The notes under the pieces are model-generated. The model searched no databases and was not told where the DNA came from. It saw only the letters and a program-made list of their open reading frames with translations. This document shows positions 36,010-50,998 of a DNA stretch of 64,000 nt, piece by piece. The position numbers were made by a program, and so were the translations under genes. The DNA lies in NCBI GenBank assembly GCA_002238725.1, contig MPMX01000001.1:124001-188000 (forward strand), in the 5' to 3' direction. The first letter of the stretch is position 1; each line of letters starts with the position of its first letter. The stretch comes from Rhodospirillaceae bacterium bin65 (GTDB lineage Bacteria > Pseudomonadota > Alphaproteobacteria > Bin65).

Positions 36010-36699
36010 TTACGCCTCGGGATCGCCGTGTGTCAGGTAGGCCCACATCCGTTCGACGACTCCGCCGCCGGTACCCGAACGCGCCTCGACTTCCTCGGGT
36101 GAAAGCGGGACAGCGTCGCCGGCGCAATCCGATCCGATCAGGAACGACTCGATGCGCGCGGCATCCTCCAGGAACCAGGCCCAGGTCACCGCGGCTTCCA
36201 GGCTGTCACCGGCTGTTACAGCGCCGTTGCCGCGCATGACTACGGCCTTGGCGTTGCCCAGCGTTTCGGCAATGCCGCCGGCGATGGTATCGTCACGCGC
36301 CAGCAGGGGCGAATCCCACAAGGGCGGCGACGGCGCGAAAAAGGCGGCATTGCCGTGCCACGGCCGGGGCGTGCGCCGCAGCAAGGAGAGCGCCATGATC
36401 GCCGGCGGCATGATGCGGCAGACGCCGCCCACCTCCGGCCGGCGCGCGTAGATTTGCTGGTGAATACGCACTTCGCCCAGCACACCTTCGGGCAGCGGCC
36501 CCGATACCGGCACGACGACACCGGATTCGCCCGGCGCGATGATACCCATCGGCTTCGCGGCACAGACCAGGAAGCGACCGGCATCGAGCCGCGCGCTGCA
36601 ATGGCCGTAGGCATGAACGAGGCCGGCACTGGCGAGGGCGCGCGCCGCCAGCCTGACTCGGCGCTGGATTTCGGCACGAGCGCAGGTCACGTCGGTCAT
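36010..36699 (-). CDS. Class II aldolase/adducin-fold protein with degenerate metal site
   Basis: A 229-residue protein with the class II aldolase outline: LASAGLVHAYGHCSARLD, FLVCAAKPMGIIAPGE and PEGVLGEVRIHQQIYARRPEVGGV. The positions that normally hold zinc ligands are altered. Where H-x-H is expected after the VGGV strand it has C-R-I-M (94-97), and the usual RGHG near the C-terminus is R-G-N-G. Zinc aldolase chemistry is therefore doubtful; decarboxylase-like, hydrolytic or structural roles are open. Its start overlaps the TetR stop as ATGA, so it belongs to the aromatic operon, at its 3' end. Confidence 0.78.
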   Translation of the reverse strand: MTDVTCARAEIQRRVRLAARALASAGLVHAYGHCSARLDAGRFLVCAAKPMGIIAPGESGVVVPVSGPLPEGVLGEVRIHQQIYARRPEVGGVCRIMPPAIMALSLLRRTPRPWHGNAAFFAPSPPLWDSPLLARDDTIAGGIAETLGNAKAVVMRGNGAVTAGDSLEAAVTWAWFLEDAARIESFLIGSDCAGDAVPLSPEEVEARSGTGGGVVERMWAYLTHGDPEA

Positions 36700-37337
36700 G
36701 GCAAACGCGTTCGTTTGTCAGTGCGGACAGCAGCCAGGTAATTGACCAGCATGTCCCGCCAGAGCAGGTGGAGACGCTCGAAACGGGCCGGTTCATCCTG
36801 CCAAAAGGCGCGGATCGCCAGGCCGCGGATCATGCTGATGGTCAGCCATAGAATGTCTTCCGCCAGATGCTCGGGGATATCGGCGGTGCGCAGCACATCG
36901 AGCCAAGCCCGTTCCACCGGCAATCGGTGGGCGCGGGCGATCGCCTGCACCTGCGAGCGAATCGCCGGATCCTTGCCGGCGGACATCAGAATGTCGAGCG
37001 CGACGAGAAAATGGTCGCCGAAAAAAAATGCCTCGCTGTCGCGGATGATCTCCTCAATCGGGTCGGCGGCGTCGGCGAGGTCGCGCGCGCGGCTTTCGGC
37101 TTCGGCCCGCGACGCGGCGAAAGCATATTCGAGCGCCGCCAGCGCCAGAGCCTCCTTGGTCGGGAAATAGTGCAGCAGCGCGCCGCGCGACACGCCGGCC
37201 ACCTCCTGCGCCTCGGCGATCCGGAACCCGGAATAGCCGCGCCTGCGAATCACGTCGAAAGCGGCGAGGATAATGCGCTCGCTGGTTTCCTCCCGGTGCT
37301 CCTGCCGGGTCCGGCGGCGCTTCGTCGTTACGGTCAT
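36696..37337 (-). CDS. TetR-family transcriptional regulator
   Basis: A 213-residue repressor. The N-terminal HTH is IILAAFDVIRRRGYSGFRI, then AEAQEVAGVSRGALLHYFPTKEALALAAL, the TetR signature. The C-terminal ligand domain is helical and not assigned. It is embedded in the aromatic ring-attack operon, overlapping the ferredoxin gene before and the aldolase-fold gene after by ATGA. The 12-bp palindrome at 41220-41231, at the operon's promoter, is the obvious candidate operator. The longer frame upstream of ATG 37337 is a shadow of the ferredoxin gene. Confidence 0.9.
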   Translation of the reverse strand: MTVTTKRRRTRQEHREETSERIILAAFDVIRRRGYSGFRIAEAQEVAGVSRGALLHYFPTKEALALAALEYAFAASRAEAESRARDLADAADPIEEIIRDSEAFFFGDHFLVALDILMSAGKDPAIRSQVQAIARAHRLPVERAWLDVLRTADIPEHLAEDILWLTISMIRGLAIRAFWQDEPARFERLHLLWRDMLVNYLAAVRTDKRTRLP

Positions 37338-37681
37338 GGCGACGCCGCTCCGCCCGAATCGATGTAAACGGCGTCGATGTAGACGGAGTCGCCGATAACG
37401 GTGACCGGCCAGGTCTTCAGCGGCTCGCGGCAGGGCATCTGGATGGCTTCCCCCGTAGTGACGTCGAAGGCGCCGAAATGCCAGCCGCATTCGACGATCC
37501 TGCCGTTCAGCATGCCTTCCTCGCTCAGCGAGGATTGGCCGTGAGTGCAGAGATCGTCGGTGACATGGAATTCGCCGTCGACATTGTAGACCGCAAGCCG
37601 GTGTCCACCGGGCAATTCGGCCTGGCGTATGTCGCCGGATTCCAGGCCGGCCGTATCGCACAGTCTGACCAGATCGCCCAT
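37334..37681 (-). CDS. Rieske-type [2Fe-2S] ferredoxin
   Basis: A 115-residue soluble electron carrier for the ring-hydroxylating dioxygenase. The cluster ligands are C45-x-H47 (LCTHGQSSL) and C65-x2-H68 (CGWHFGAF). The pattern V-Y-N-V-D-G-E-F before the first box is typical of BphF-like ferredoxins. It lies in the same operon as the alpha and beta subunits, although four genes from them; the ferredoxin reductase is not present, so another reductase must serve. The stop overlaps the TetR start. Confidence 0.93.
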   Translation of the reverse strand: MGDLVRLCDTAGLESGDIRQAELPGGHRLAVYNVDGEFHVTDDLCTHGQSSLSEEGMLNGRIVECGWHFGAFDVTTGEAIQMPCREPLKTWPVTVIGDSVYIDAVYIDSGGAASP

Positions 37682-37685
37682 GCGG

Positions 37686-38480
37686 CTATAACATCGTGCT
37701 GCCGCCGTTGACGCCGATCACCTGCCCGTTGACGAAGGCGGCCTCGGCCGAGGCGAGATAGGACACCATTGAGGCAACCTCCGCCATCTCGGCGGGCCGA
37801 CCGACGGGAATGATGTCGATGAACTTCTGCGCCACCTCCGGCGCCTTGTCGAAATAATCGTCCAGCTGCGGCGTGCGCGTGGCGCAGGGCGCAATGGCGT
37901 TGACGGTGATGCCCTGCGGCGCGAACTCGCGGGCGAGCCCTGTGGTCAGCCCGTGCATGCCGCCCTTCGCGGCGTTGTAGGCAGCGTGGTCCCACAGCCC
38001 GTTGCGCACCGAATCCGCGCCGATATTGACGATACGGCCGTAACCCTGCTCCGCCATGATCGGCAGCGCAGCCCGACTGCACCAGATTGCCGTCCACAGG
38101 TTCCGGTCTATTGTGGCCTTGAGGGTTTCCGGCGTGTGATCGAGGAAAGGGCGGATGACTCCGCCTCCGGCATTGTTGACCAGAATGTCGATCCGGCCGA
38201 ACCCGTCGCGGGTGGCCGCGATCAGGTCGCGGGCGTTGTCTTCTTCGGCAAGATCGCCGGCGACAGCAGCAACCTCGTGGCCGGACAGCGTCGCCAACCT
38301 GTCCGCCGCCGCTTCGAGCCCGGCTTCGTCGAGATCGCCCAGCGCCACCCTCGCCCCATCCCTTGCGAGGCGTTCGGCGATCGCATAGCCGATGCCGTTG
38401 GCGCCGCCCGTGACGACGGCGACGCGACCGTCGTGCCACGCCTTCGAGAAGCCGAAAGCGGCGCCGGGATCGGCGATCAT
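37686..38480 (-). CDS. SDR dehydrogenase, probable cis-dihydrodiol dehydrogenase
   Basis: A 264-residue NAD-dependent SDR. TGGANGIG is at 24-31, NNAG at 102-105, and Y168/K172 in YNAAKGG. At the catalytic-serine position the sequence is NIGADS, so the serine seems shifted to S157, as in some acyl-CoA or ring-alcohol dehydrogenases. D49 suggests NAD. In the operon it should rearomatise the dihydrodiol made by the dioxygenase. It overlaps the extradiol dioxygenase start as ATGA and ends four bases before the ferredoxin gene. Confidence 0.87.
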   Translation of the reverse strand: MIADPGAAFGFSKAWHDGRVAVVTGGANGIGYAIAERLARDGARVALGDLDEAGLEAAADRLATLSGHEVAAVAGDLAEEDNARDLIAATRDGFGRIDILVNNAGGGVIRPFLDHTPETLKATIDRNLWTAIWCSRAALPIMAEQGYGRIVNIGADSVRNGLWDHAAYNAAKGGMHGLTTGLAREFAPQGITVNAIAPCATRTPQLDDYFDKAPEVAQKFIDIIPVGRPAEMAEVASMVSYLASAEAAFVNGQVIGVNGGSTML

Positions 38481-39376
38481 GCCGCTGCCTCGAACCGGCC
38501 GACTTTGGCGAAGTCGAGGCTGGGCAGGCCGCCCCAGAAATCGAGCGATTCGGGCACCGGCGGCAAGGTTCGCGGCGCCCGGGCGCCGGTTTCCGCGAAC
38601 TCTTCCATGCCGAAGCTGTATTCCACCGTCATGCCGTCCGGATCGAGGAAATAGAGGAAGATACTACCGGACGGTGGATGGCGGCCCGGCCCGTAGACGA
38701 TCTCGACACCGTTCTTCTTGAGCCGGTTGAGCGCCCGGCCGACATCGTCGATATCCGTCACCATGAAATTGACATGGTGCAGCCGGTTCTCGTCGGCCCG
38801 CGCAATCCCCAGCGAGTGGTGGAACCGGTTCGGGAAGCAGCGCAGGAAAGAGACAAGGCCGTCGACCTCGTCGGACAGCAGAAAACCGAGGTCGCGGATC
38901 AGCGAATCCCGCATCGCCGGCAGGTCGGGCGTGGACACGACGACATGGCCGAGCCGGGCGATCCTGGCGAGGCGCGCCTCGAACGGGTCGGCCATCTGCT
39001 CCATGCCGGCGAAATATTCGAGCGGGAGCCCGGTGCCGGGATGGTGGAAGCGCAGGCTTCGGCCCTGGCGGAGCGCGGCGGTCTCCTCCGCATCGACCCA
39101 TGCCGGGCCGTAGCCGCACCGCTCCAGATGGCCGAAGGCGCGCTCCAGGTCGTCTCCGGATTCGAGTTCGAAACCGATCCGTTTCAGACCGGGTTCGGGC
39201 GCCTGGCTCAGCAGGATATTGTGATGGTCCGGCCCGCAGCGCAGCGCCGCCTGCGCCTCCGTCACCTCGGTCGTGTCGAGGCCGACGATATCGGTATAGA
39301 AGGCGAGGGTGCGGGCGAGGTCGGTGACGTTGAGCGCTACATAACCCAGCCGGCTGTAGCGATAATCCGCGCTCAT
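38477..39376 (-). CDS. Extradiol ring-cleavage dioxygenase (VOC superfamily, type I)
   Basis: A 299-residue two-domain enzyme that cleaves a catechol next to its hydroxyls. Fe ligands in the C-terminal domain are H144 (RLGHVVVST), H201 (LHHVNFMV) and E252 (TVEYSFGM), in the order expected for 2,3-dihydroxybiphenyl/catechol dioxygenases. The N-terminal domain lacks the ligands, as is normal. DPDGMTVEYSFGMEEF matches the extradiol signature. ATG 39376 (MSADYRYSRLGYV) is chosen; the open frame upstream is a shadow of the beta subunit gene. It provides ring opening in the aromatic operon. Confidence 0.9.
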   Translation of the reverse strand: MSADYRYSRLGYVALNVTDLARTLAFYTDIVGLDTTEVTEAQAALRCGPDHHNILLSQAPEPGLKRIGFELESGDDLERAFGHLERCGYGPAWVDAEETAALRQGRSLRFHHPGTGLPLEYFAGMEQMADPFEARLARIARLGHVVVSTPDLPAMRDSLIRDLGFLLSDEVDGLVSFLRCFPNRFHHSLGIARADENRLHHVNFMVTDIDDVGRALNRLKKNGVEIVYGPGRHPPSGSIFLYFLDPDGMTVEYSFGMEEFAETGARAPRTLPPVPESLDFWGGLPSLDFAKVGRFEAAA

Positions 39377-39386
39377 CGGGGCCGCC

Positions 39387-39875
39387 TCACAGCAGAATGC
39401 TGATACGGCCCTGGGGGCGCAGGCCTTCCATATCCAGGAAGCACCATTTCTCGGCAATCTTGAGTGCGCCGTTCGGCCGGACCAGCTTGTAGCGCGTGCT
39501 GCCGATATAGGTGTCGGTGACGCCGTCCTTGGACCGGAACGTGGCAAAAGCGGCGGTCACCGTCGCCGATTCGTCGTCGATCTTCCGTATCCGCACGTTG
39601 CTGACCAGGTGCCGCGTCTTCGAGCGCGGAAACTCGGCATGCGCGGTTTTCTTCTTCAGCCGGGTCACCCGCTCCTCAAGCCGCGTCCTGTCGTCGGCGA
39701 TATAGAACAGGTTGTCGGCAGCCTTCGCCGATTTGTCGAGGTCGGTCGACGGCACATTGTAGACTGCGTCGTCCGCAAACAGATCAAGCCAGGCCTCGAG
39801 GTCCCAATCGTCGAGGAATTCGGCCTCGGCGAAGACAAACTCCTCGGCCTCGTCGCGTGTCAGTCGAAAGGTCAT
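39387..39875 (-). CDS. Aromatic ring-hydroxylating dioxygenase, beta (small) subunit
   Basis: A 162-residue NTF2-like structural subunit. It has the family opening EAEEFVFAEAEFLDDWDLEAWLDLF, the core DAVYNVPSTD, and RLKKKTAHAEFPRSKTRHLVSNVRI, where SKTRHLVSNV is the conserved beta-subunit segment. The end WCFLDMEGLRPQGRISILL matches related proteins. It pairs with the alpha subunit encoded 14 bases upstream. No catalytic role expected. Confidence 0.92.
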   Translation of the reverse strand: MTFRLTRDEAEEFVFAEAEFLDDWDLEAWLDLFADDAVYNVPSTDLDKSAKAADNLFYIADDRTRLEERVTRLKKKTAHAEFPRSKTRHLVSNVRIRKIDDESATVTAAFATFRSKDGVTDTYIGSTRYKLVRPNGALKIAEKWCFLDMEGLRPQGRISILL

Positions 39876-39889
39876 TTCCGGCCCTCCCC

Positions 39890-41170
39890 TCAGGCCGCGA
39901 GGCCGAAGCCGTCGGCGCGGGATATTCGCGACTGCCATTCGGTCCAGAACGCCCGCATCTGCGCTTCGTCGTCGAACGACGGCTCGGCCTTGCCTATGCC
40001 CTTCGAAATGTCGTTCCATCGGGCTTCTTTGAGGTTCCGGTAGCCCATCTGGCACTTCTCCATGGCCTCGACATCGTCCGGCGTGGCGAACCCGCCCGGT
40101 CCGAGAAATTCCAGGAAATTGTACAGGCGGTATTGGCGCGCCCAGTCCACTTCGCGGCGTGGCGCCAGCGCCCAGGCGTTCACATTCATGAAGTCCGGCG
40201 CGTCGGGATAGTAGGTGCGCACGGTGATCGCCATGATGTCGTTGACGATCAGGTTCGGGAAGATCAGCAGATTGCGGTTGTAATGCGCGATTCGGTCGGC
40301 CTTGTCCGGCCCCAGCCGCTCGACCAGCTCCGCCTTGACGTCCTCGAGCTGCGCCTTGACCTCCTCGCCCCACATCGGAATCCACTGGGCGATGGTACGG
40401 CCCCAGGGCGCCTTGTATTCGAGCACCGCGTGGCCGTTGCCCAGATCGAATGCCCGCCCGACCAGGGGCTGCTTGATCAGCCCGCCGCTGACATTCATCA
40501 GATAGTCGAGATAGGTGGCGTGGGTCGATTCGGCGTGATAGCCGTCTACGCTGTTTTCGGTCAGCAGCTTCCAGTTGGACCGGATCGCGTATTCCTGCGT
40601 TCCGCCGACGATCTCCATGCCGTGTTTCGAATGCAGCGAGAGCAGTTCGATATAGGGCATCGCGGCGCCCAGATAGTCGTCCAGGGAAGGTCCGTCGGGG
40701 TCGAAGCAGACGAACCAGAAGCCGGCGCAGTTATCCAGCTTCGGCACCGGGGTGAGATCGCCGCCGCCGCTTTCGCGGAAATTCTCGCCGTAGGAGTCTT
40801 CGCCGGGCAGATGCTTAAGCCGTCCGTCGTTTCCGAAGACCCAGCCGTGGTACATGCACTGGAAGGATTTGGCCGAGCCGCTGCGCTCGCGGCAAACCGA
40901 AGCGCCGCGATGGGGGCAGGTGTTGAGATAGGCGCGGAACTCCCCGTCGGCCTGACGGGCAAAGAGAATATTCCGCCGGGCGACCGTGCGCGTCAGGAAG
41001 TCGTTGGGCTGATCCAGCTCCGATTCATGGCCGAGATAGAGCCAGCATTTGTCGAAGATTTCCCGGTATTCGGCGTCCGTGACCGCCGGATCGACGAAGG
41101 CGCGCCGGGACACCTTGAATGTCTTCAGATCCTCGTCGATCCGTACATAGGCGCCGTTGGTTCCGCTCAT
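39890..41170 (-). CDS. Aromatic ring-hydroxylating dioxygenase, alpha (catalytic) subunit
   Basis: A 426-residue Rieske oxygenase. The Rieske ligands are C85-x-H87 ([10 protein letters not shown]) and C105-x2-H108 (CMYHGW). The mononuclear iron site is H212 and H217 with the bridging D209 ([16 protein letters not shown]). It begins [20 protein letters not shown], after CCTC-free GGAGGAAG about seven bases away. It should add O2 across an aromatic ring. It heads the minus-strand operon with beta subunit, extradiol dioxygenase, dehydrogenase and ferredoxin. The aromatic substrate is not predictable, and salicylate, benzoate-like or biphenyl-like acids are all possible. Confidence 0.93.
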
Positions 41171-41219
41171 CCGCTTCCTCCCGATTCCTGTCCCGCAGCC
41201 CACGGTCTTGCGCTACAGT

Positions 41220-41277: not shown

Positions 41278-41688
41278 CTAACCGCCATCCTCGAGAAATG
41301 CGATGGCCTCGATCTCGACCTTGTATTCCGGCCCGGCGAGGGCGTTGACGCCGATCAGTGTCGAGGCCGGCATTCGGCCGTCGAAGAACTCCTTCCGGGC
41401 GCGGCCGATCTCCGGGCGGTCGGCAATGTCGGTGAGATAGATGGTCAGCTTGGCGACATCGGCGAGCGAGCCGCCGGCGGCCTCGACCAGCTTTTCGATC
41501 TTCGCGAAACAGGCGCGCGCCTGCTCGTAGGCCGAGTCGCCGCCGATGACGCCGCCGGCGGCGGCGGACGCCACCATGCCGGACAGGACAACCTGGTTGT
41601 CGGCCTTCAGGCAGTTGGAAAAGATATTGCCCGGAAACTCCGGCGCTTCCGGTGCCGTAATCTGCTCGAACCTGACCGATGTCGGCAT
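41278..41688 (-). CDS. RidA/YjgF-family protein
   Basis: A 136-residue trimeric-type enamine/imine deaminase relative. NIFSNCLKADNQVVLSGMVAS, cut to VVLSGMVAS, is the family opening, and the late catalytic segment is PASTLIGVNALAGPEYKVEIEAIAF, where VEIEAIA is the RidA ending; the usual arginine in the R-x-x-V/E position is not obvious. It is the third gene of an operon with a Rieske oxygenase, so it may hydrolyse an imine made when the oxygenase attacks a nitrogen-containing compound. That link is inferred. Confidence 0.87.
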   Translation of the reverse strand: MPTSVRFEQITAPEAPEFPGNIFSNCLKADNQVVLSGMVASAAAGGVIGGDSAYEQARACFAKIEKLVEAAGGSLADVAKLTIYLTDIADRPEIGRARKEFFDGRMPASTLIGVNALAGPEYKVEIEAIAFLEDGG

Positions 41689-41712: not shown

Positions 41713-42786
41713 CTATCCGGCCGGCGCTTCCCCGCTGTGTTCCGCTTCGGCCTGCACTGCCGCCATCGCCTTGGCCTGCTGCAGCGCCTCGCGCGCCATC
41801 AGGCCGCGGACCCGGGTCAGGCCGAGATCGTGGCTGTAGAGATGTTCGCGCGCGTCGGCGTCGGCGGCCATGGTCTCCATGACCAGCCGGTCCTGCTCCA
41901 GGACGTGCCAGTGCCGCTCCTCCAGCCGGGTCCGGTAAAGGAACTGCCAGACATCGGCCTGCCAGCCGCTCACCTTGCGGTGGCGCCAGAAAAAGCAGGC
42001 CGAAGTCTCCGCGTCGATCGGCGTGACGTGGAAGACGATGCCGAAATTGCCGCCCGGCCCGCCGGTCGCCGGATAGGGGATTTCCAGGCAGACCGCCTGG
42101 AAGTTGCGGTCGTACCATTCGCTCCAGTCGAAATTCAGATCCTTCTGGCCGGTCTTCTCGAACACGAAGCCGGTGTCGGTGTCGCGGGTGCGGAATTCCG
42201 CCTGCCGGGAGCCCTGCTGCATCGAATGGGCGGTCGTGTGCAGAAAGGCGCCGTGCATCGGATCCATGTTGTTGTCGATCAGGAAGCGATAGGGGCAGCG
42301 CCATTCCGTGTAGCAGAGGATCGCCCGGTAGTCTCCGTTCGCCAGCCGATCGGGCGGGGTGAAGGCGGCCGGCGGGGCTTCCGGATCCGACCCGTACCAG
42401 GCATAGACCGCGCCGCGGTGCTCGCGCGCCGGATAGTTGCGGACGGCGCGCGTGCCGACAAGGGCGCAGCCGGGCTCGCCGGGAACCGCCGCCACCGTGC
42501 CGTCGCCGAGGATCTGCGCGCCGTGATAGACGCAGACCAGCCGGTCGCCGTCGATGCGGGCGAGCGAAAGCGGCGCGCCGCGGTGCGGGCAGCGGTCGTC
42601 CATCAGCCGGACCGCGCCGTCCCGGTCGCGCCAGGCGACCAGGTTCCGGCCCCAGCGCGTCAGCGCCAAAGGGCCGGCGCCGATCCGGTCGGACGGGCAG
42701 ATGCCGTACCAGCGGTCGTAAAGGCCGGTCGCCAGAATCGCCTGGGTCGCCTCGCCGGCCCGCGGCTTCGGAGCCGGGTCGTTCAT
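41713..42786 (-). CDS. Rieske oxygenase, single-subunit (VanA/demethylase-like)
   Basis: A 357-residue oxygenase. Rieske ligands are C66-x-H68 (DRCPHRGAPLS) and C85-x2-H88 (CVYHGA). The iron site is D175, H178, H183 in NNMDPMHGAFLHTTAH, the form seen in the alpha-only O-demethylase and carbazole/dicamba branches. ATG 42786 overlaps the stop of the preceding gene as ATGA. It needs a reductase encoded elsewhere. Coupling with a RidA protein suggests a substrate with nitrogen, but this is only inference. Confidence 0.9.
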   Translation of the reverse strand: MNDPAPKPRAGEATQAILATGLYDRWYGICPSDRIGAGPLALTRWGRNLVAWRDRDGAVRLMDDRCPHRGAPLSLARIDGDRLVCVYHGAQILGDGTVAAVPGEPGCALVGTRAVRNYPAREHRGAVYAWYGSDPEAPPAAFTPPDRLANGDYRAILCYTEWRCPYRFLIDNNMDPMHGAFLHTTAHSMQQGSRQAEFRTRDTDTGFVFEKTGQKDLNFDWSEWYDRNFQAVCLEIPYPATGGPGGNFGIVFHVTPIDAETSACFFWRHRKVSGWQADVWQFLYRTRLEERHWHVLEQDRLVMETMAADADAREHLYSHDLGLTRVRGLMAREALQQAKAMAAVQAEAEHSGEAPAG

Positions 42787-43499
42787 CGCGCCGCCACCGG
42801 TCGTTCCCGTCCCCCGGCCCCGGACAAGTCGGAGTCGGACCCGGCCGGATTGCCGAGCCGCTGCATGGCGGCCGGGAAGTTGGCTTCCGTCCACGCGTCG
42901 CCGTCCGGGGTTTGCAGCCCGGCGTCGTTCAGGGCGTCGGCCAAGTCCGGCAAGTCGTGGATGCCCGCGGCGAAGGCCGCTTCCAGGGCCGCGCTCAGCC
43001 GGTCCTCGTAGTCCGTCGGCGCCGTCGTGCGGAACTGCCACGGCTCGATCGAGAGGCCATTGTGCGGCAGGCGCGGATGATCGCCGCCGCCGGCGCCGCT
43101 CGACACAGGCGCTTCGGCCACAGTGTCCGACCCCGGCGACCGGTCTTCGCCAATCCCGCCGGCCACGCGCCGTTCCGCCGATTCCCGGGCCAGCCGCTCG
43201 CGCACCTTCAGGAAATCGTAGGAGACGAAAACTTCCGTGCGGAACACGCCCCAGGCCGAGCGCTCCAGCTCGACATTGACCGCCTGGAGTCGGTCCGGCG
43301 GCAGCCGCAGGGTCACGATCTGGCCGAGGCCCATCGCGACCGTCCAGGACACGATCTCGACCCCCTCGGGCGGGAAGCGCCGCCACCAGTCGCGCGCGTC
43401 GAGCGCCGTCTGGAATTCCCCCAGCACCTTCGACTGATCGTGCTTCAGGAACACGGTCAGCAGGATATCGCCGCCTGCGATGTCATTAGGTTCTGCCAT
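42783..43499 (-). CDS. Two-domain protein with a C-terminal recombinase-like helix-turn-helix (IacB-like)
   Basis: A 238-residue protein. Residues about 8-100 form a compact alpha/beta domain (ILLTVFLKHDQSKVLGEF, then EGVEIVSWTVAMGLGQIVTLRLP) that I do not recognise with certainty. A disordered linker follows. The C-terminal 60 residues have AFAAGIHDLPDLADALNDAG, then LQTPDGDAWTEANFPAAMQRLG, which resembles the recombinase-type HTH also found in IacB-like proteins of indoleacetate and related oxygenase loci. ATG 43499 is used; the longer frame reaches into the vsr strand. Its stop overlaps the Rieske gene as ATGA, so it probably helps that oxygenase. Confidence 0.7.
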   Translation of the reverse strand: MAEPNDIAGGDILLTVFLKHDQSKVLGEFQTALDARDWWRRFPPEGVEIVSWTVAMGLGQIVTLRLPPDRLQAVNVELERSAWGVFRTEVFVSYDFLKVRERLARESAERRVAGGIGEDRSPGSDTVAEAPVSSGAGGGDHPRLPHNGLSIEPWQFRTTAPTDYEDRLSAALEAAFAAGIHDLPDLADALNDAGLQTPDGDAWTEANFPAAMQRLGNPAGSDSDLSGAGGRERPVAAR

Positions 43500-43610: not shown

Positions 43611-44036
43611 ATGGATACCCGCACCCCGGAACAGCGCCGACGCATTATGCAGGCGGTCAAGAGCAAGCACACCAGGCCGGAATTGATCGTGCGCCGGCTG
43701 TTGCACGGCATGGGCTATCGCTACCGGCTGCACCGCAAGGATTTGCCGGGCAGGCCGGATATCGCATTCGTTTCACGGCGGAAAGCGATCTTCGTGCACG
43801 GCTGTTTCTGGCACGGACACGGCTGTTCGAAGGGACGCTTGCCGAAATCCCGCCTCGACTACTGGCAACCGAAGCTTGACGAAAACATGCGTCGGGATAG
43901 AATAAAACAGGAACAATTGAGAGGCTTGGGTTGGAATGTGCTCGTCGTATGGCAATGCGAGATTGCGGATATCGATGAATTGGCGAAGCGACTACAATAT
44001 TTTGTGGATGAATCGGAAAATTCGATCGACATCTAG
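43611..44036 (+). CDS. vsr: Very short patch repair endonuclease (Vsr)
   Basis: A 141-residue nuclease that nicks at T:G mismatches created when 5-methylcytosine deaminates. It has the full pattern EQRRRIMQAVKSKHTRPELIVRRLL, then GYRYRLHRKDLPGRPDIAFVSRRKAIFVHGCFWHGHGC, of which PGRPDIAF and HGCFWHGHGC carry the catalytic Asp and zinc ligands. The zinc-binding Cys/His set is complete. It directly precedes a cytosine methyltransferase gene. The ribosome site is poor. It starts a low-GC-leaning island that includes an R-M system. Confidence 0.94.
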   Translation: MDTRTPEQRRRIMQAVKSKHTRPELIVRRLLHGMGYRYRLHRKDLPGRPDIAFVSRRKAIFVHGCFWHGHGCSKGRLPKSRLDYWQPKLDENMRRDRIKQEQLRGLGWNVLVVWQCEIADIDELAKRLQYFVDESENSIDI

Positions 44037-44090
44037 TGACGATCCCGATATTGTAGGAGCGAATATCAACGGGAGCCGGGCTGTACTGCA

Positions 44091-45422
44091 ATGAGACCCA
44101 TCGGGATCGATCTGTTTGCCGGCGCCGGCGGGCTGAGCCTCGGTTTCGAGCAGGCCGGCTTCGACATTGCGGCGGCCGTCGAGATCGATCCGGTGCATTG
44201 CGCGGTTCACAAATTCAATTTCCCACGCACCGCCATTGTCCCCCGGTCCGTCGAAGGCCTGAGCGGAGCCGCGATCGTCGAGGCCGCGGGTATCGGCTAT
44301 CGGCCAGTCGATTGCGTGTTCGGCGGCGCGCCCTGCCAGGGCTTTTCCCTGATCGGACATCGCATACTCGACGACCCGCGCAACCGGTTGGTGCGCGAAT
44401 TCGTTCGCCTCGTCGCCGAACTCGGCGCGCGGACATTCGTCTTCGAGAATGTGAAGGGGCTCACGGTCGGCAGGCATCGCGCGTTTCTCGACGAACTCGT
44501 GACGGAATTTTCGGACGCCGGCTACGATGTGCGGATACCGTGGCGGGTTCTAAACGCGGGCCACTTCGGCACGCCGCAGCATCGCGAACGCCTGATCCTG
44601 CTCGGCGCGCGCAAGGGCGAGCGATTGCCCGACTATCCCGACCCGACAACCAACATCGCCGGCGGGCGAAATCGGATAGACGACCTGCCCGACGGGCCGA
44701 CCTGCGCCGACGCGCTCGGGGATCTTCCCGATGCCGAACGATTCGGGGTGCTGGTCGACTGCGATGCGGTCAAGACCTCCGCTTTCGGAGAACCTTCTAC
44801 TTACGCAACCGCATTGCGATGCCTCACCAACGATGCGTGGCATAGCGGTTATGCGCGCGAGTGGAATCCGGCGGTCCTGACGTCCAGCGCGCGCACGAAA
44901 CATACCGCCATTTCCCGTCGCCGATTTTGCGGCACCAAACCGGGCTCGGTCGAACCGATCAGTAGGTTCTTCAAACTCTGCGCGACGGGCGTCTCGAATA
45001 CACTACGCGCCGGCACGGACGGGGCGCGCGGGGCATTCACAAGCCCACGCCCAATTCACTACCGCTACGATCGCTGTATCACCGTGCGCGAGATGGCTCG
45101 GCTGCACGGTTTTCCGGACTGGTTCCGCTTCAACGCAACCAAATGGCACGGCGCGCGGCAGATCGGCAATGCGGTACCGCCGCCGCTCGGAAGAGCGATA
45201 GCCGGCAGCGTTATCGAAGCATTGGGTATCGTTCCGACCCGAACGTCGCGCGCGATCGCACTCGGCGACGCGGCGCTTCTGTCGCTCGATCTTTCCGGCG
45301 CCGCCGCACAATTCGGAGTTGACGCGCCGCCCAGCCGCCGCGACAGGAAAAGCGGCGCAACGAAGCGCAAACAGATCGACATAGAACGCGAGCGTCTCTC
45401 CGGGCAGCCGGCATATGCCTAA
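44091..45422 (+). CDS. DNA (cytosine-5) methyltransferase
   Basis: A 443-residue C5-methylase. Motif I IDLFAGAGGLSLGF (6-19), motif IV GGAPCQGFS with catalytic C82, motif VI FENVKG (118-123), motif VIII QHRER (163-167) and motif X RQIGNAVPPPL are all intact, so the enzyme should be active. The target recognition region lies between about 200 and 330; its specificity cannot be read. It overlaps the next gene by 8 bases and follows vsr, so the three make one unit that methylates, restricts and repairs. Confidence 0.94.
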   Translation: MRPIGIDLFAGAGGLSLGFEQAGFDIAAAVEIDPVHCAVHKFNFPRTAIVPRSVEGLSGAAIVEAAGIGYRPVDCVFGGAPCQGFSLIGHRILDDPRNRLVREFVRLVAELGARTFVFENVKGLTVGRHRAFLDELVTEFSDAGYDVRIPWRVLNAGHFGTPQHRERLILLGARKGERLPDYPDPTTNIAGGRNRIDDLPDGPTCADALGDLPDAERFGVLVDCDAVKTSAFGEPSTYATALRCLTNDAWHSGYAREWNPAVLTSSARTKHTAISRRRFCGTKPGSVEPISRFFKLCATGVSNTLRAGTDGARGAFTSPRPIHYRYDRCITVREMARLHGFPDWFRFNATKWHGARQIGNAVPPPLGRAIAGSVIEALGIVPTRTSRAIALGDAALLSLDLSGAAAQFGVDAPPSRRDRKSGATKRKQIDIERERLSGQPAYA

Positions 45423-46203
45423 GAAGCTCAACAGATACCAAGCGCTGATCCAGAAGATTTTCTTCGATCGTTATAGGGAAGGCTCGACCGAATTCGAGTT
45501 CGAGCGGGAGGCGTTAGAAGAAGGAGCTGAAGAACTCGGCTTCGCTCGGGTCAAGAACCTCGGCGACGTCGCGTATTCATTCAGGTACAGAAACGACCTG
45601 CCGGATAAGATTTTAGACACCCAGCCCGAAGGACTCGAATGGATCATCGAGGGAGCCGGAAAGGGTCGCTACCGGTTCAGGCTGGTCAAAGAGAACCGAA
45701 TCGTGCCGCGCGACAACCTCGCCGCAATAGACATACCCGACGCGACGCCTGAACTGATCCGGGCCTATGCGCTGGATGACGAACAGGCCCTGTTGGCGAT
45801 CGTTCGCTACAACCGCCTGATCGATACCTTCCTCGGCCTGACGACCTACAGCCTCCAGAACCATCTTCGGACAACCGTCAAGGGCATGGGGCAAATCGAG
45901 ATCGACGAACTTTATATCGGCCTCGACAAGTACGGCTGCCACTACGCCATCCCCGTCCAGGCCAAAGGCGGCAAGGATCGAATCGGTATCGTGCAGACCG
46001 CGCAGGATATCCGTTTCGTAGATGAGAGGTTCCCGGAAATGCGTTGCCGGGCGATTGCCGCTCAATTCTTGGACGATCAGGTCGTTGCGCTTTTTGAACT
46101 CACGCTGCAGAACGAAGAAATCAAAGTGGTCGAAGAGCGGCACTATCGTCTCGTTCCGGGCGACCGACTCGACGACGACGCGATCCGGGCCTACCGCAGT
46201 TAA
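45415..46203 (+). CDS. Probable type II restriction endonuclease (PD-(D/E)xK-like)
   Basis: A 262-residue protein that I cannot assign to a named enzyme. Placement behind the C5-methylase, with an 8-base overlap, makes it the likely restriction partner. A PD-(D/E)xK-like core is visible: E162-x-D164 in QIEIDELYIGLDKYG, then the beta-strand IPVQAK with Q182-x-K184 in place of E-x-K, a variation accepted in the superfamily. The region TPELIRAYALDDEQALLAIVRYN is helical. ATG 45415 is set by the overlap. The alternative is a methylase-associated DNA-binding protein without nuclease activity. Confidence 0.75.
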   Translation: MPKKLNRYQALIQKIFFDRYREGSTEFEFEREALEEGAEELGFARVKNLGDVAYSFRYRNDLPDKILDTQPEGLEWIIEGAGKGRYRFRLVKENRIVPRDNLAAIDIPDATPELIRAYALDDEQALLAIVRYNRLIDTFLGLTTYSLQNHLRTTVKGMGQIEIDELYIGLDKYGCHYAIPVQAKGGKDRIGIVQTAQDIRFVDERFPEMRCRAIAAQFLDDQVVALFELTLQNEEIKVVEERHYRLVPGDRLDDDAIRAYRS

Positions 46204-46595: not shown

Positions 46596-48917
46596 CTATC
46601 CAATTGTCCCCCCACGCAAAGCCCGCAGCATCCGCTCCGGCGTGAAGGGCTGGACCGTCGCCTGCGCGCCGAGCGGGCGCAGGGCGTCGTTGACGGCGCA
46701 CCAGACGGCAGCGATCGCGCCGATGATGCCGGCTTCGCCGGCGCCCTTGACGCCGGTTTCGGCGCCGGGCTGCGGAGTCTCGACGTGATCGACATGGATG
46801 GGCGGCACCCACCCCGCGCGCGGCAGGGCATAGTCCATCAGCGAGCCGGTCAGCAGGTTACCGTCGCCGTCGTAGACGCAGCGCTCCATTAGCGCCGCGC
46901 CGAGGCCCTGGACCACGCCGCCGACGATCTGCCCGTCGACCAGCGCCGGGTTGACGACGCGGCCGCAGTCCTCGACCACCCAGTGGTTCAGCAGGTCGAT
47001 GGCGCCGGTCTCCGGATCGATGGCGAGATGGCAGGCCTGGATGCCGTTGGCGGCATAGAAAGGCGCGGTCTTCGGCACGAAGCTGCGGGTCGCGCTGAGA
47101 TCGGTCGAGACCTCCGGCGGCAGCTGATGCTGGCGATAGTGCGCGATCTTCGCGACCTCCGCCACGGCAAGCCGCGCCGCACCGCGCCGGTCGATGACAT
47201 GGCCCTCGGCGAGCGACAGGGTCGCGGCGGCCTCCTGCAGCAGGGTCGCGGCGATATCCAGCAGACGCGCGGCGACCGCATCCGCCGCCTGCCAGGCCGC
47301 TGTGCCGCCGATCGCCAGGCCGCGCGAGGCCCAGGCGCCGCCGCCGATCGGCCCGGCGCTGTCTCCCGCCGTCACGGCGACATCCCCGGGCCGCAGTCCC
47401 AGGCGCTCCGCCACGAGCTGCCCGACTCCGGTGAGCGTGCCCTGGCCCTGGTCGGTGCAGCCGACCTGGACCCGCACGACGCCGGACGGCAGCAGCGCCA
47501 CCGTGGCGGTATCCTCGGCGGTGACATCGACCTCCTGCGCGCCGTAGACGCCGGCGCCGGGCGCGGTCAGCTCGACCAGCGTGGCCACGCCGATTCCCTC
47601 GATCCGCCCGGCCGCGCGAGCCGACGCCTGGGTCGCGCGCAGCGCCGGATAATCCATCAGGTTTTCCAGCCGGCCGAGGCAGGCGTGCAGCGAAAGCGCA
47701 TCGGCCCTGACGCCGCCGGCGCCGGTAAACGGGATACCGTCGGCAGGATAATTGCGCCGGCGCAGCTCCAGCGGATCGATGCCGAACCGGTGCGCCGCAT
47801 CGTCGATCAGCACTTCCGTCACCGCCATGGCGACAGGCTGGCCGACCCCGCGATAGGCGCCGGTCGGCGCCTTGTTCTGGGCCAGCACCTGCGCGGCCAC
47901 GCCGACCCGGCCGGCGGTGTACGCACTGCCGATCAGGGACGAGGCGAGACCGGCATCCCCGGCGCTGCCGCGCGGATAGATCGAATAGGGCCCGGCGCCC
48001 ATCGCCATCTCCGCCTCGATGGCCTGCATCGAACCGTCATCGCCCAGCGCGAGGGCCGCCTCGATCGTGAATTCCCGGGCATGAACATCGGACAGGAAGG
48101 ACTCCAGCCGGTCCGCCGCCCATCCGACCGGCCGGCCGAGCAGGCGCGCCGCAGCGACCACGGCAAGTTCGTCGGCATAGGCGTGCAGCTTGATGCCGAA
48201 GGCGCCGCCGACATCGGGGCAGACGACCCGGACCTTGTGCTGCGGCAGGCCGAGCAGGTCGGCCCAGACATCCTGCATCTGGTGCGGCGCCTGGCCGGAT
48301 TGGTACACCGTCAGGGCGCCGTCGGCCGGGTCGTAGTCGGCGAGCACCGCCCGGCCTTCCAGCGGCACGCCGGTCTGGCGCTCGAACACGAAGCGCCGAC
48401 GCTCCGCCGCAGATTCGCCAGTGGGGCTGCCGAACGTCCGGCGCAGCATGACGTTGCTTTCCGCCGCATGGGCCCTGCGCTCGCGGTGCGCCGGATCGGC
48501 GTAGTCCGTTGCCGGCGGCAGCCCCTCGATCTCAAGCAAGACGGCCTCGGCGGCGTCGCGGGCGCGGTCGAGGTTGTCGGCGACGGCGAGGGCAACCGGC
48601 TGGCCCTGATAGTGGACGCTGTCCCCGGCGAGCGCCGGTTGCGGTGGCGGCCGGTGTTCCGGAACCATCGCCAGGCGCGTAACCATCGGCTTGCAGACCG
48701 GCCGCAGATCTTCCGCCGTCAGCACAGCGGCGACGCCCGGCATGGCCCGCGCGGCGGCCGTATCCAGCACCGCAATCCGGCCGTGGGCGGCCGGGCTGCG
48801 CAGGAAGGCGGCGTGCAGCAGGCGCGGCGCCGTCAGGTCGGCGGTAAAGCGGCCGCGTCCGGCAATCAGCCGGCGCGCTTCGCTGCGCGGGATCGATCGG
48901 TCGACGGTATCGTCCAT
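46596..48917 (-). CDS. Xanthine dehydrogenase-family molybdopterin-binding large subunit (orphan)
   Basis: A 773-residue molybdenum hydroxylase large subunit. It starts DRSIPRSEARRLIAGRGRFTADL and has the Mo-site segments VRVVCPDVGGAFGIK, APTGAYRGVGQPVAM and the catalytic Glu in VKGAGEAGIIGAI. The AYRGVGQP loop lacks the AYRCSFR of true CO dehydrogenase, so it is not CoxL of form I. The FAD and [2Fe-2S] subunits that normally go with it are not adjacent. ATG 48917 is chosen for family fit. It may hydroxylate an N-heterocycle or an aldehyde, and neighbours are oxygenases. Confidence 0.85.
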   Translation of the reverse strand: MDDTVDRSIPRSEARRLIAGRGRFTADLTAPRLLHAAFLRSPAAHGRIAVLDTAAARAMPGVAAVLTAEDLRPVCKPMVTRLAMVPEHRPPPQPALAGDSVHYQGQPVALAVADNLDRARDAAEAVLLEIEGLPPATDYADPAHRERRAHAAESNVMLRRTFGSPTGESAAERRRFVFERQTGVPLEGRAVLADYDPADGALTVYQSGQAPHQMQDVWADLLGLPQHKVRVVCPDVGGAFGIKLHAYADELAVVAAARLLGRPVGWAADRLESFLSDVHAREFTIEAALALGDDGSMQAIEAEMAMGAGPYSIYPRGSAGDAGLASSLIGSAYTAGRVGVAAQVLAQNKAPTGAYRGVGQPVAMAVTEVLIDDAAHRFGIDPLELRRRNYPADGIPFTGAGGVRADALSLHACLGRLENLMDYPALRATQASARAAGRIEGIGVATLVELTAPGAGVYGAQEVDVTAEDTATVALLPSGVVRVQVGCTDQGQGTLTGVGQLVAERLGLRPGDVAVTAGDSAGPIGGGAWASRGLAIGGTAAWQAADAVAARLLDIAATLLQEAAATLSLAEGHVIDRRGAARLAVAEVAKIAHYRQHQLPPEVSTDLSATRSFVPKTAPFYAANGIQACHLAIDPETGAIDLLNHWVVEDCGRVVNPALVDGQIVGGVVQGLGAALMERCVYDGDGNLLTGSLMDYALPRAGWVPPIHVDHVETPQPGAETGVKGAGEAGIIGAIAAVWCAVNDALRPLGAQATVQPFTPERMLRALRGGTIG

Positions 48918-48994
48918 GCAAGGTCGGGGATTCGGGTGGCGGACAGGCGGCACTGTAGCCGAGGCGTAAGTCGACAGCCATCTCTGCGATTCGG

Positions 48995-49033
48995 CCCTTC
49001 GATACGCCGATTTGCGGCCACTCAGGACAAGGG
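48995..49033. repeat. Dispersed palindromic intergenic repeat, copy 2 (inverted)
   Basis: CCCTTCGATACGCC then GGCCACTCAGGACAAGGG is the reverse complement arrangement of the unit at 6512-6553. The middle is partly decayed. It lies between divergent genes. Confidence 0.6.
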
Positions 49034-49160
49034 ATTCTGAATGATCGCGCTGATCCCGAGCAGCCCCGGACCCGGTCCGGGACGTATCGGGGGATGCACC
49101 GATCGTCACTCTCTTTGCAAACTGGATCGGCGCTTCGGATTGGCGTATTCAGGAAGCGCC

Positions 49161-50507
49161 ATGGCCCTCGCCACCGACAACAGCAGCTTGCCGCCGGCCG
49201 TCGGCGCCGCCGAGATCGCGGCGCTGGTCGAGCCGACCCGCGTACACCGGCGCGCCTACACGGACCGCGCGGTGTTCGACCTGGAAATGGAACGCATTTT
49301 CGGCCGGGCCTGGATCTTCGTCGCTCACGCCAGCCAGATCCCGCACCCGAACGACCTGATCCGCACGCGCCTCGGCCTGCACGACGTGCTGGTGACGCGC
49401 GATCCGGAAGGCCCGGTCCATGTCGTGCTCAACCGCTGCACCCACCGCGGCACGACCCTGTGCTCCGTCGAGCGCGCCAACGCCGCAAGCCTGGTCTGCC
49501 CCTACCACGCCTGGACTTTCGGCCTGGACGGCACGCTGCGCTCGGTTCCGCACCGCAAGAGCATGCCGGCCAGCTTCGACATGGCCGACCCGGGCCTCAA
49601 CCTGTTCCGCGCGCCGCGGGTCGCCGACTACCGGGGCTTCATCTTCGCCAGCCTGGCCGAAGACGGGCCGGCGGTCGAAGATTTCCTCGGCGACATGACC
49701 GATGTGCTCGACAATTTCATCGACCGCGCGCCGAACGGCGAGGTTACCCAGGAAGGCGGCGCGTTCCGGCTGGAATACCGCGGCAACTGGAAGCTGCATC
49801 ACGAAAACGCCAACGACACGATGCATCCCGGCTTCGTCCACGAATCCTCGGTCAACGCCGCGCGGGAGGACGGCCGCGACTATGCCGAGCCGGCCTACGA
49901 CGAGCACCAGGCCCATGTCCAAATGCTGTCGAACGGGTTCTCGGTGCGGGAATGGCAGTCCCTGGGCCTGCAGGGGCTGGCCAACGGCCACAGCTATATG
50001 GACGGCTTCTACACTCAGGGCATCCTGTCGCCGGACCGGGACGATCCGATTTCCCGCAGCTATCGGGACGCGCTGGAAGCCGCCCACGGGCGGAAGGCCG
50101 CTGCCGGCATCCTGGCGATGGACCGGTTCAACAACCTGGTCTGGCCCAACCTGAACATCAACGCCCAGTATCAGCAGATCCGGGTGGTCCAGCCGGTCGC
50201 GCCCGACCGCACCGTCGTCCAGGCCATGTGCTTCCGCCTCGGTGGCGCGCCGGAGGGCATGTTCCACCGCGCAGTGCGCTTCCTGACCAATCTCAGCTCG
50301 CCCGCGTCGATGATCTTTGCCGACGATGCCGAGATTTTCGAGAAGGTCCAGGCCGGGCTGTCGGACGGCAGGCGGGAATGGCTGGACCAGTCGCGCGGCA
50401 TCGACGAGACGGTCGGCAACGGCCGCATCGCATCGGCCGGAACCAGCGAATTGCCGATCCGCGGCCAGTACCGGGCCTGGCTCGACCATATGACCGCGGC
50501 GCCGTGA
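49161..50507 (+). CDS. Aromatic ring-hydroxylating dioxygenase, alpha subunit (second locus)
   Basis: A 448-residue Rieske oxygenase. Rieske ligands: C93-x-H95 (NRCTHRGTTL) and C113-x2-H116 (CPYHAW). Mononuclear iron: D219, H222, H227 in ENANDTMHPGFVH. The Asp-for-canonical spacing N-x-x-D-x-x-H is normal. ATG 49161 follows AGGA; the longer upstream frame is rejected because it runs through the repeat. The stop overlaps the GTG start of the small subunit. It differs strongly from the subunit at 39890, so it should act on another ring compound. Confidence 0.9.
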   Translation: MALATDNSSLPPAVGAAEIAALVEPTRVHRRAYTDRAVFDLEMERIFGRAWIFVAHASQIPHPNDLIRTRLGLHDVLVTRDPEGPVHVVLNRCTHRGTTLCSVERANAASLVCPYHAWTFGLDGTLRSVPHRKSMPASFDMADPGLNLFRAPRVADYRGFIFASLAEDGPAVEDFLGDMTDVLDNFIDRAPNGEVTQEGGAFRLEYRGNWKLHHENANDTMHPGFVHESSVNAAREDGRDYAEPAYDEHQAHVQMLSNGFSVREWQSLGLQGLANGHSYMDGFYTQGILSPDRDDPISRSYRDALEAAHGRKAAAGILAMDRFNNLVWPNLNINAQYQQIRVVQPVAPDRTVVQAMCFRLGGAPEGMFHRAVRFLTNLSSPASMIFADDAEIFEKVQAGLSDGRREWLDQSRGIDETVGNGRIASAGTSELPIRGQYRAWLDHMTAAP

Positions 50508-50998
50508 CGGACGCTGTGGATCGGAAGGCCGTGGATCGGGGGGCCGTCGAAGCCTTCCTCTATCGTGAAGCCCGCCTGCTCGACGACCACCGGTTCGAGG
50601 ACTGGCTGGCCCTGTTCGCCGACGACGGCCTCTACTGGATCCCGGCCCAGCCCGGCCAGACCGACCGCTTCGGCGCGGCATCGATCGTCCACGAAGACCG
50701 CACGGTCCTGCGCATGCGGGTCCGGCGGCTCAGCCATCCGCGCGCGTGGTCGCTGACGCCGCAGCCGCGCAGTTCCCATCTGCTCGGCAATATCGATGTC
50801 GCGCCGGCGGCCGGCGGCGAAATCGAAGCGGTCGCCTCGCTGCAGGTCGCGATATACCGCGACGGCGACCGGACGCGCTACGACGGCCGCCAGACCGTGC
50901 GCCTCCGGCCCAACGGCGGCGATTTCGAAATCGCGCTCAAACGTATCGACCTGATCGACTGCGACGGCACCCTGGGCGTGTTGCCGGTGCCGATCTGA
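50504..50998 (+). CDS. Aromatic ring-hydroxylating dioxygenase, beta (small) subunit (second locus)
   Basis: A 164-residue NTF2-like subunit. AVEAFLYREARLLDDHRFEDWLALFADDGLYWIP carries the family opening; VHEDRTVLRMRVRRLSHPRAW, then SSHLLGNI, is the conserved beta-subunit core. Start GTG 50504 overlaps the alpha stop as GTGA. It stabilises the alpha subunit, with no own catalysis expected. Electron transfer partners for this pair are not in the neighbourhood. Confidence 0.9.
   Translation: MTDAVDRKAVDRGAVEAFLYREARLLDDHRFEDWLALFADDGLYWIPAQPGQTDRFGAASIVHEDRTVLRMRVRRLSHPRAWSLTPQPRSSHLLGNIDVAPAAGGEIEAVASLQVAIYRDGDRTRYDGRQTVRLRPNGGDFEIALKRIDLIDCDGTLGVLPVPI

Follow-up and report, generated by a model that had tools for sequence, protein, structure and literature searches.

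A recombinase-like helix-turn-helix domain kept beside one Rieske oxygenase subfamily and fused to a second domain in a Rhodospirillaceae-like clade: a candidate oxygenase subunit

The DNA that concerns us here is a stretch of 64,000 nucleotides from Rhodospirillaceae bacterium bin65 (the window), and within it lies a catabolic operon in which genes for Rieske oxygenases (ROs) keep company with a gene that, by its resemblance to recombinases, would seem to belong elsewhere (Table 1). That gene is a single open frame from 43499 to 42783, opposite which the plus strand offers a shadow frame only, and the 238 residues that it encodes include no cysteine. A scan for promoters and terminators upstream found none. 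Divergent from the operon, at 43611-45422 on the plus strand, lie the genes of a Vsr endonuclease and of a C5 cytosine methyltransferase, and behind them a 262-aa ORF (45415-46203) without a Pfam match; the three are a modification cassette beside the operon. Also adjoining it are genes for a molybdenum hydroxylase subunit (46596-49109) and for another oxygenase alpha subunit (49041-50507), and the genes at 46596-50998 form, together with the operon, a larger catabolic island.

Table 1. Features of the fusion gene and its operon, in window coordinates
Feature	Position	Strand	Basis
Fusion gene, 238 aa: alpha/beta domain, linker and HTH_62	42783..43499	minus	Pfam match, structure model
N-terminal domain, residues 9-112, ferredoxin-like beta-alpha-beta-beta-alpha-beta (predicted)	43164..43475	minus	separate gene in most relatives
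Linker, residues 113-149	43053..43163	minus	low-confidence in structure model
HTH_62 domain, residues 150-217, acidic	42849..43052	minus	Pfam, charge, structure model
ATGA stop/start overlap of fusion gene and oxygenase gene	42783..42786	minus	read in sequence
RO alpha subunit, 357 aa, Rieske and VanA_C; partner oxygenase	41713..42786	minus	domain matches
RidA family protein, 136 aa, after the RO gene	41278..41688	minus	domain matches
Second oxygenase alpha subunit, benzoate-dioxygenase-like, far under the equivalog cut-off	39890..41203	minus	domain matches
Ring-hydroxylating beta subunit	39387..39860	minus	
VOC-family protein (glyoxalase/extradiol-type)	38477..39376	minus	
Short-chain dehydrogenase (SDR)	37686..38480	minus	
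Rieske-type ferredoxin, 115 aa	37334..37681	minus	
TetR-family regulator	36696..37361	minus	

An earlier note on this DNA had described a recombinase-like helix-turn-helix (HTH) inside an RO operon, and that is what is there: residues 150-217 match the Pfam family PF20552 (HTH_62) with 90.5 bits, against a curated cut-off of 27, the RO gene overlaps by ATGA and RidA comes next. The note had also taken the HTH to be fused to a further domain of unfamiliar type, and domain searches of both halves bear this out. For residues 1-112, searches of Pfam, of NCBIfam and, by sequence, of the PDB gave no match, yet in this part the relatives are about 51-96% identical, and for that reason we regard the N-terminal half as a real domain.

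How did two such domains come to share one frame? A scan of a public genome collection gave 40 relatives of the fusion protein, the nearest of them in Rhodospirillaceae-like metagenome bins, one of which bears a sponge name. One frame holds both domains in the window and in L024-L028, L063 and L067; all other loci that have both (28 entries, with one contig listed twice, as L048 and L065) encode them in separate genes, which follow one another in the order N domain, HTH_62, oxygenase and nearly always overlap or adjoin, and in Aeromicrobium (L035), the N-domain and HTH_62 genes flank the oxygenase gene. The pair, fused or neighboring, is kept in Alpha-, Beta- and Gammaproteobacteria and in one actinobacterium, conservation that a chance ORF would not show. 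Where the linker ends, it can be aligned with the first residues of the HTH_62 proteins that L029 and L034 encode without a fusion, and a tree of the oxygenases groups the fused forms in a single 8-row set with starred support, nested in a 10-row set with those same two loci. The fusion therefore arose once, in a Rhodospirillaceae-like clade, by the union of two neighboring genes. (Its two domains were aligned and predicted apart; a joint alignment with single-domain rows misplaced the HTH_62 rows.) The genome of the window carries, in addition, a second HTH_62 with an RO of the same subfamily and without the N domain (L064 8689-12249, G000:C86).

The constant element in all of this is the HTH_62 domain and its oxygenase. 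We searched 397 Pseudomonadota genomes with PF20552 and obtained 38 matches; the surroundings of 18 were examined together with 17 control regions on the same contigs, about 40 kb off in all but one case. All 16 acidic matches had an RO nearby, versus neither of the two basic ones (a resolvase and a 115-aa ORF) and none of the 17 controls. An RO lay beside HTH_62 in 7/7 cases of a second survey and in 9/9 annotated plasmid records, two of which are A. baumannii copies and whose hosts include Klebsiella, Acinetobacter, Caballeronia, Novosphingobium and Streptomyces. Among 13 low-scoring contrast matches, 12 are basic ORFs of 225-309 aa without an adjoining oxygenase (PF00239, the resolvase catalytic domain, was present in all four of the resolvase-like ones scanned), and the thirteenth is a fusion of a different kind, to which we return below. 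When 79 loci were scored together, all 71 that hold HTH_62 also had an RO of the same subfamily. In 64 of them the RO starts no more than 200 bp downstream, on the strand of HTH_62, and in 7 it starts 1.7-2.8 kb away, counts that are not independent because the loci overlap in kinship.

The partnership also holds when it is approached from the oxygenase. With the window RO as query, 17 of the 397 genomes matched at E ≤ 4.8e-81, and the next followed only at 4.8e-27, a sharp gap; these are the same 17 that have an acidic HTH_62 of over 40 bits. In one Burkholderiales family, the RO occurs in 15 of 98 genomes, at 24 loci; HTH_62 exceeds the Pfam cut-off in all 15 and lies within about 5 kb of the RO at 21 of the loci, the remaining three (G565:C17, G667:C5 and G655:C245) being extra copies in genomes with HTH_62 elsewhere. 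The pairing extends over three proteobacterial classes and two actinobacteria (L035 and L139); its hosts range from alphaproteobacteria associated with sponges to Klebsiella, Acinetobacter and Streptomyces. The co-occurrence is not random, given the same 17 of 397 genomes and the 17 empty control regions, and we consider the genomic partnership well supported and very probably functional. In L110, L111, L112, L113 and L115, the pair recurs with a conserved cupin, several loci of this group also having transporter, SDR, hydrolase and IclR genes; the cupin-bearing loci represent one widespread catabolic pathway.

The odd member of the contrast set comes from contig 21 of G565, where a single frame of 431 residues holds an HTH_62-like segment at 11-60 (21.7 bits, under the Pfam cut-off of 27) and then, at 94-424, an RO of the same subfamily (E 8e-77 against that of the window). 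No such fusion turned up in the other 97 genomes of its family (1/98 in total). It is a single case, placed where a partner subunit would be fused, and may be read as indirect support for a complex.

What, then, might a small three-helix protein do for an oxygenase that it so seldom leaves? We propose, with a probability of roughly 0.58, that HTH_62 is a structural or assembly subunit that binds the RO alpha subunit and that, in the fused forms, it holds a RidA-linked product-processing module at the oxygenase. In this scheme, HTH_62 would attach to the alpha subunit and aid its assembly, stability or gating, much as has been proposed for NdmE with NdmC/NdmD; the N domain and RidA would process an unstable oxygenase product of the imine or enamine type; and fusion to HTH_62 would keep the N domain where that product emerges, at the oxygenase. 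Direct binding of HTH_62 to the oxygenase is, on balance, likely, and product processing by the N domain is put forward more tentatively. Three points count against a subunit: an operon neighborhood can mean a shared pathway and no more, so that binding is something we infer; the fusion of HTH_62 to the RO is one case, under the Pfam cut-off; and 3/24 RO loci of the Burkholderiales family are without HTH_62 within 5 kb.

The first of these points leads to the strongest competitor, in which HTH_62 is a small pathway enzyme or metabolite binder whose target is the oxygenase's substrate or product and which makes no contact with the oxygenase itself, and co-inheritance reflects the shared pathway. 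The neighborhood, with its cupin (34/71 loci), hydrolase, dehydrogenases and transporters, would suit such a role, as would fusion to an N domain that resembles an enzyme-type fold. However, HTH_62 stays with the RO in loci where the cupin, RidA, the N domain, the ferredoxin or the reductase is absent or swapped, it has once been fused to the RO itself, and a 65-aa unit of three helices with few invariant residues (Q17, L52 and W65 in the alignment) would make a poor enzyme. We consider this explanation unlikely.

Could HTH_62 instead be an adaptor for electron transfer, docking a ferredoxin or a reductase on the oxygenase? A Rieske ferredoxin gene lies directly upstream of the pair in 12/71 loci, and HTH_62 is acidic, as many ferredoxins are. 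Against this stands the makeup of the loci, for 15 have a Rieske ferredoxin, 19 have a VanB-type reductase and never does one have both; because HTH_62 is kept with either, it is not tied to one type of electron donor, and an adaptor is, to our minds, less probable still than a pathway enzyme. A protein of 238 residues without a cysteine cannot itself hold an Fe-S cluster, and a role as electron carrier was set aside as unlikely. The earlier note had imagined a helper of the oxygenase in assembly or in electron transfer: an assembly or structural role fits a constant RO partner, whereas electron transfer fits neither the lack of cysteine nor the indifference to donor type.

There remains the role that the name suggests. 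RO-linked HTH_62 domains and resolvase tails are homologous (hhalign probability 96.6%, E 5e-10), and the predicted structure is HTH-like, three helices with pLDDT near 90, so that the resemblance seen earlier has survived structure prediction; a fold search with the domain alone gave no significant PDB match, a result that says little for so small a unit. By these profiles, HTH_62 either evolved from the DNA-binding HTH of serine resolvases or has a common ancestor with it. Net charge is another matter: over the domain it runs from -2 to -10 in RO-linked copies (mean -4.8, n=73) versus +1 to +6 in resolvases (mean 4.0, n=13), ranges that do not overlap; in the helix after the conserved Trp, the means are -1.0 and +1.7, and there the ranges overlap. 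PF00239 is absent from the fusion protein and present in the yardstick resolvases. Because the charge is reversed without overlap, DNA binding by RO-linked HTH_62 appears unlikely, and a role in binding protein would fit. That HTH_62 is a DNA-binding autoregulator of its operon, as homology to the resolvase HTH would allow, is highly improbable given the negative charge of all 73 RO-linked copies, the operons' own IclR or TetR regulators and the coupling or fusion of HTH_62 to enzyme genes.

If HTH_62 is, as we prefer, a subunit bound to the oxygenase, what would the domain fused to it contribute? The N domain is predicted as beta-alpha-beta-beta-alpha-beta with pLDDT of about 80-93 over residues 11-110, and a fold search with the whole model matched mainly over residues 9-100. 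The matches are of the ferredoxin-like class and include ClcF, TftG and EthD at Z of about 7, tied with ribosomal protein S6, and for that reason only the fold class is safe. With the muconolactone-isomerase-type or dimeric alpha+beta barrel proteins (ClcF, TftG, 4-methylmuconolactone methylisomerase and EthD), the N domain shares a predicted fold class, at 6-16% identity in the rows shown and with Z tied with S6, a likeness that speaks for neither kinship nor function. One N-domain relative matches GYD at E 0.025, under the cut-off. Across 35 N-domain rows, invariant residues include H20-D21-Q22, E45-G46-V47-E48-I49-V50-S51-W52 and W83; the HDQS motif varies in more distant relatives. Because the 35 rows include unlinked relatives that bear signal peptides, this invariance speaks for an activity that the domain may have of its own.

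The link to RidA is close. Among the 71 HTH_62-RO loci, 33 have both N domain and RidA, 4 the N domain only, none RidA only and 34 neither, which means RidA in 33/37 loci with the N domain versus 0/34 without (Fisher p 5e-16, uncorrected for kinship). In the tree of the oxygenases, the N domain is characteristic of a single branch: 37 of its 42 rows have the domain, and the remaining 5 are also without RidA. The domain is not confined to this setting: 12 of the 397 genomes have matches to it, and 11 of the 12 have one away from HTH_62 and without any RO, mostly with a signal-peptide-like start, so that its activity would not be tied to the oxygenase. Secreted-looking Pseudomonas N-domain proteins (L055 6333-7324, L057 and L212) are encoded directly behind another secreted-looking protein, which in L055 is a DUF4822 protein.

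A bolder form of our proposal would make HTH_62 the obligatory third component of the whole RO subfamily, a former resolvase DNA-binding domain altered by charge reversal, and the fused branch a docking adaptor with a recruited product-processing domain. Taken as a whole, we put this a little short of even odds. Its consequences, were it true, would be practical as well as evolutionary. The degradation of many aromatic and nitrogen-containing compounds begins with a Rieske oxygenase; these enzymes are used in biocatalysis, and many are hard to obtain in active form. If the subfamily needs HTH_62, a name that suggests DNA would have led to omission of the partner from expression constructs, which could explain inactive preparations; records of Klebsiella and Acinetobacter are among those that contain the pair. 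Evolution would here, moreover, have clearly converted a fold for binding DNA into a subunit for binding protein.

The family itself is already known, in Pfam and under the NCBI name “recombinase-like helix-turn-helix domain-containing protein”; what is new is an undescribed, constant small partner of the RO, fused here to a second module. Literature searches with “recombinase-like helix-turn-helix” and “PF20552” gave no paper that assigns a function, and in the parts available of the literature on Rieske accessory proteins and on Rieske plus RidA, we found no description of an HTH_62 partner. The C-terminal half of the window protein is a clear member of PF20552, which comprises acidic oxygenase-linked proteins and basic resolvase tails, and it differs from other members in its fusion to a further domain. 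With the C-terminal HTH of serine resolvases (proteins with PF00239 and PF07508), HTH_62 shares a homologous three-helix unit; it differs in its reversed charge, in a fusion protein without the resolvase domain and in always lying beside an oxygenase.

Among known oxygenase systems, indole-3-acetate catabolism has, in the portions available of its published accounts, a small protein of unclear role near an oxygenase gene, IacB (PMC7225977, PMC11676955), which the earlier note had brought into the comparison. An A. baumannii record examined for IacB gave only clusters that, by their make-up, are benzoate- and anthranilate-dioxygenase-like. The neighbor of IacB, IacC, is the alpha subunit of an alpha/beta oxygenase (427 aa, with a beta subunit, in a published table; PMC11676955), different in RO type and size from the HTH_62-linked subfamily. 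The Rieske system of riboflavin catabolism is an alpha/beta enzyme for which the available text names no HTH_62-like partner (PMC12746152). The nearest precedent, as far as the accessible account goes, is NdmE of the NdmC/NdmD/NdmE caffeine N7-demethylase, a non-redox accessory protein with a proposed structural role (PMC4408171) and, like HTH_62 in our proposal, a non-redox helper of a Rieske-type oxygenase. NdmE is glutathione-S-transferase-like and serves one special complex, whereas HTH_62 has no sequence relation to it and accompanies an entire RO subfamily.
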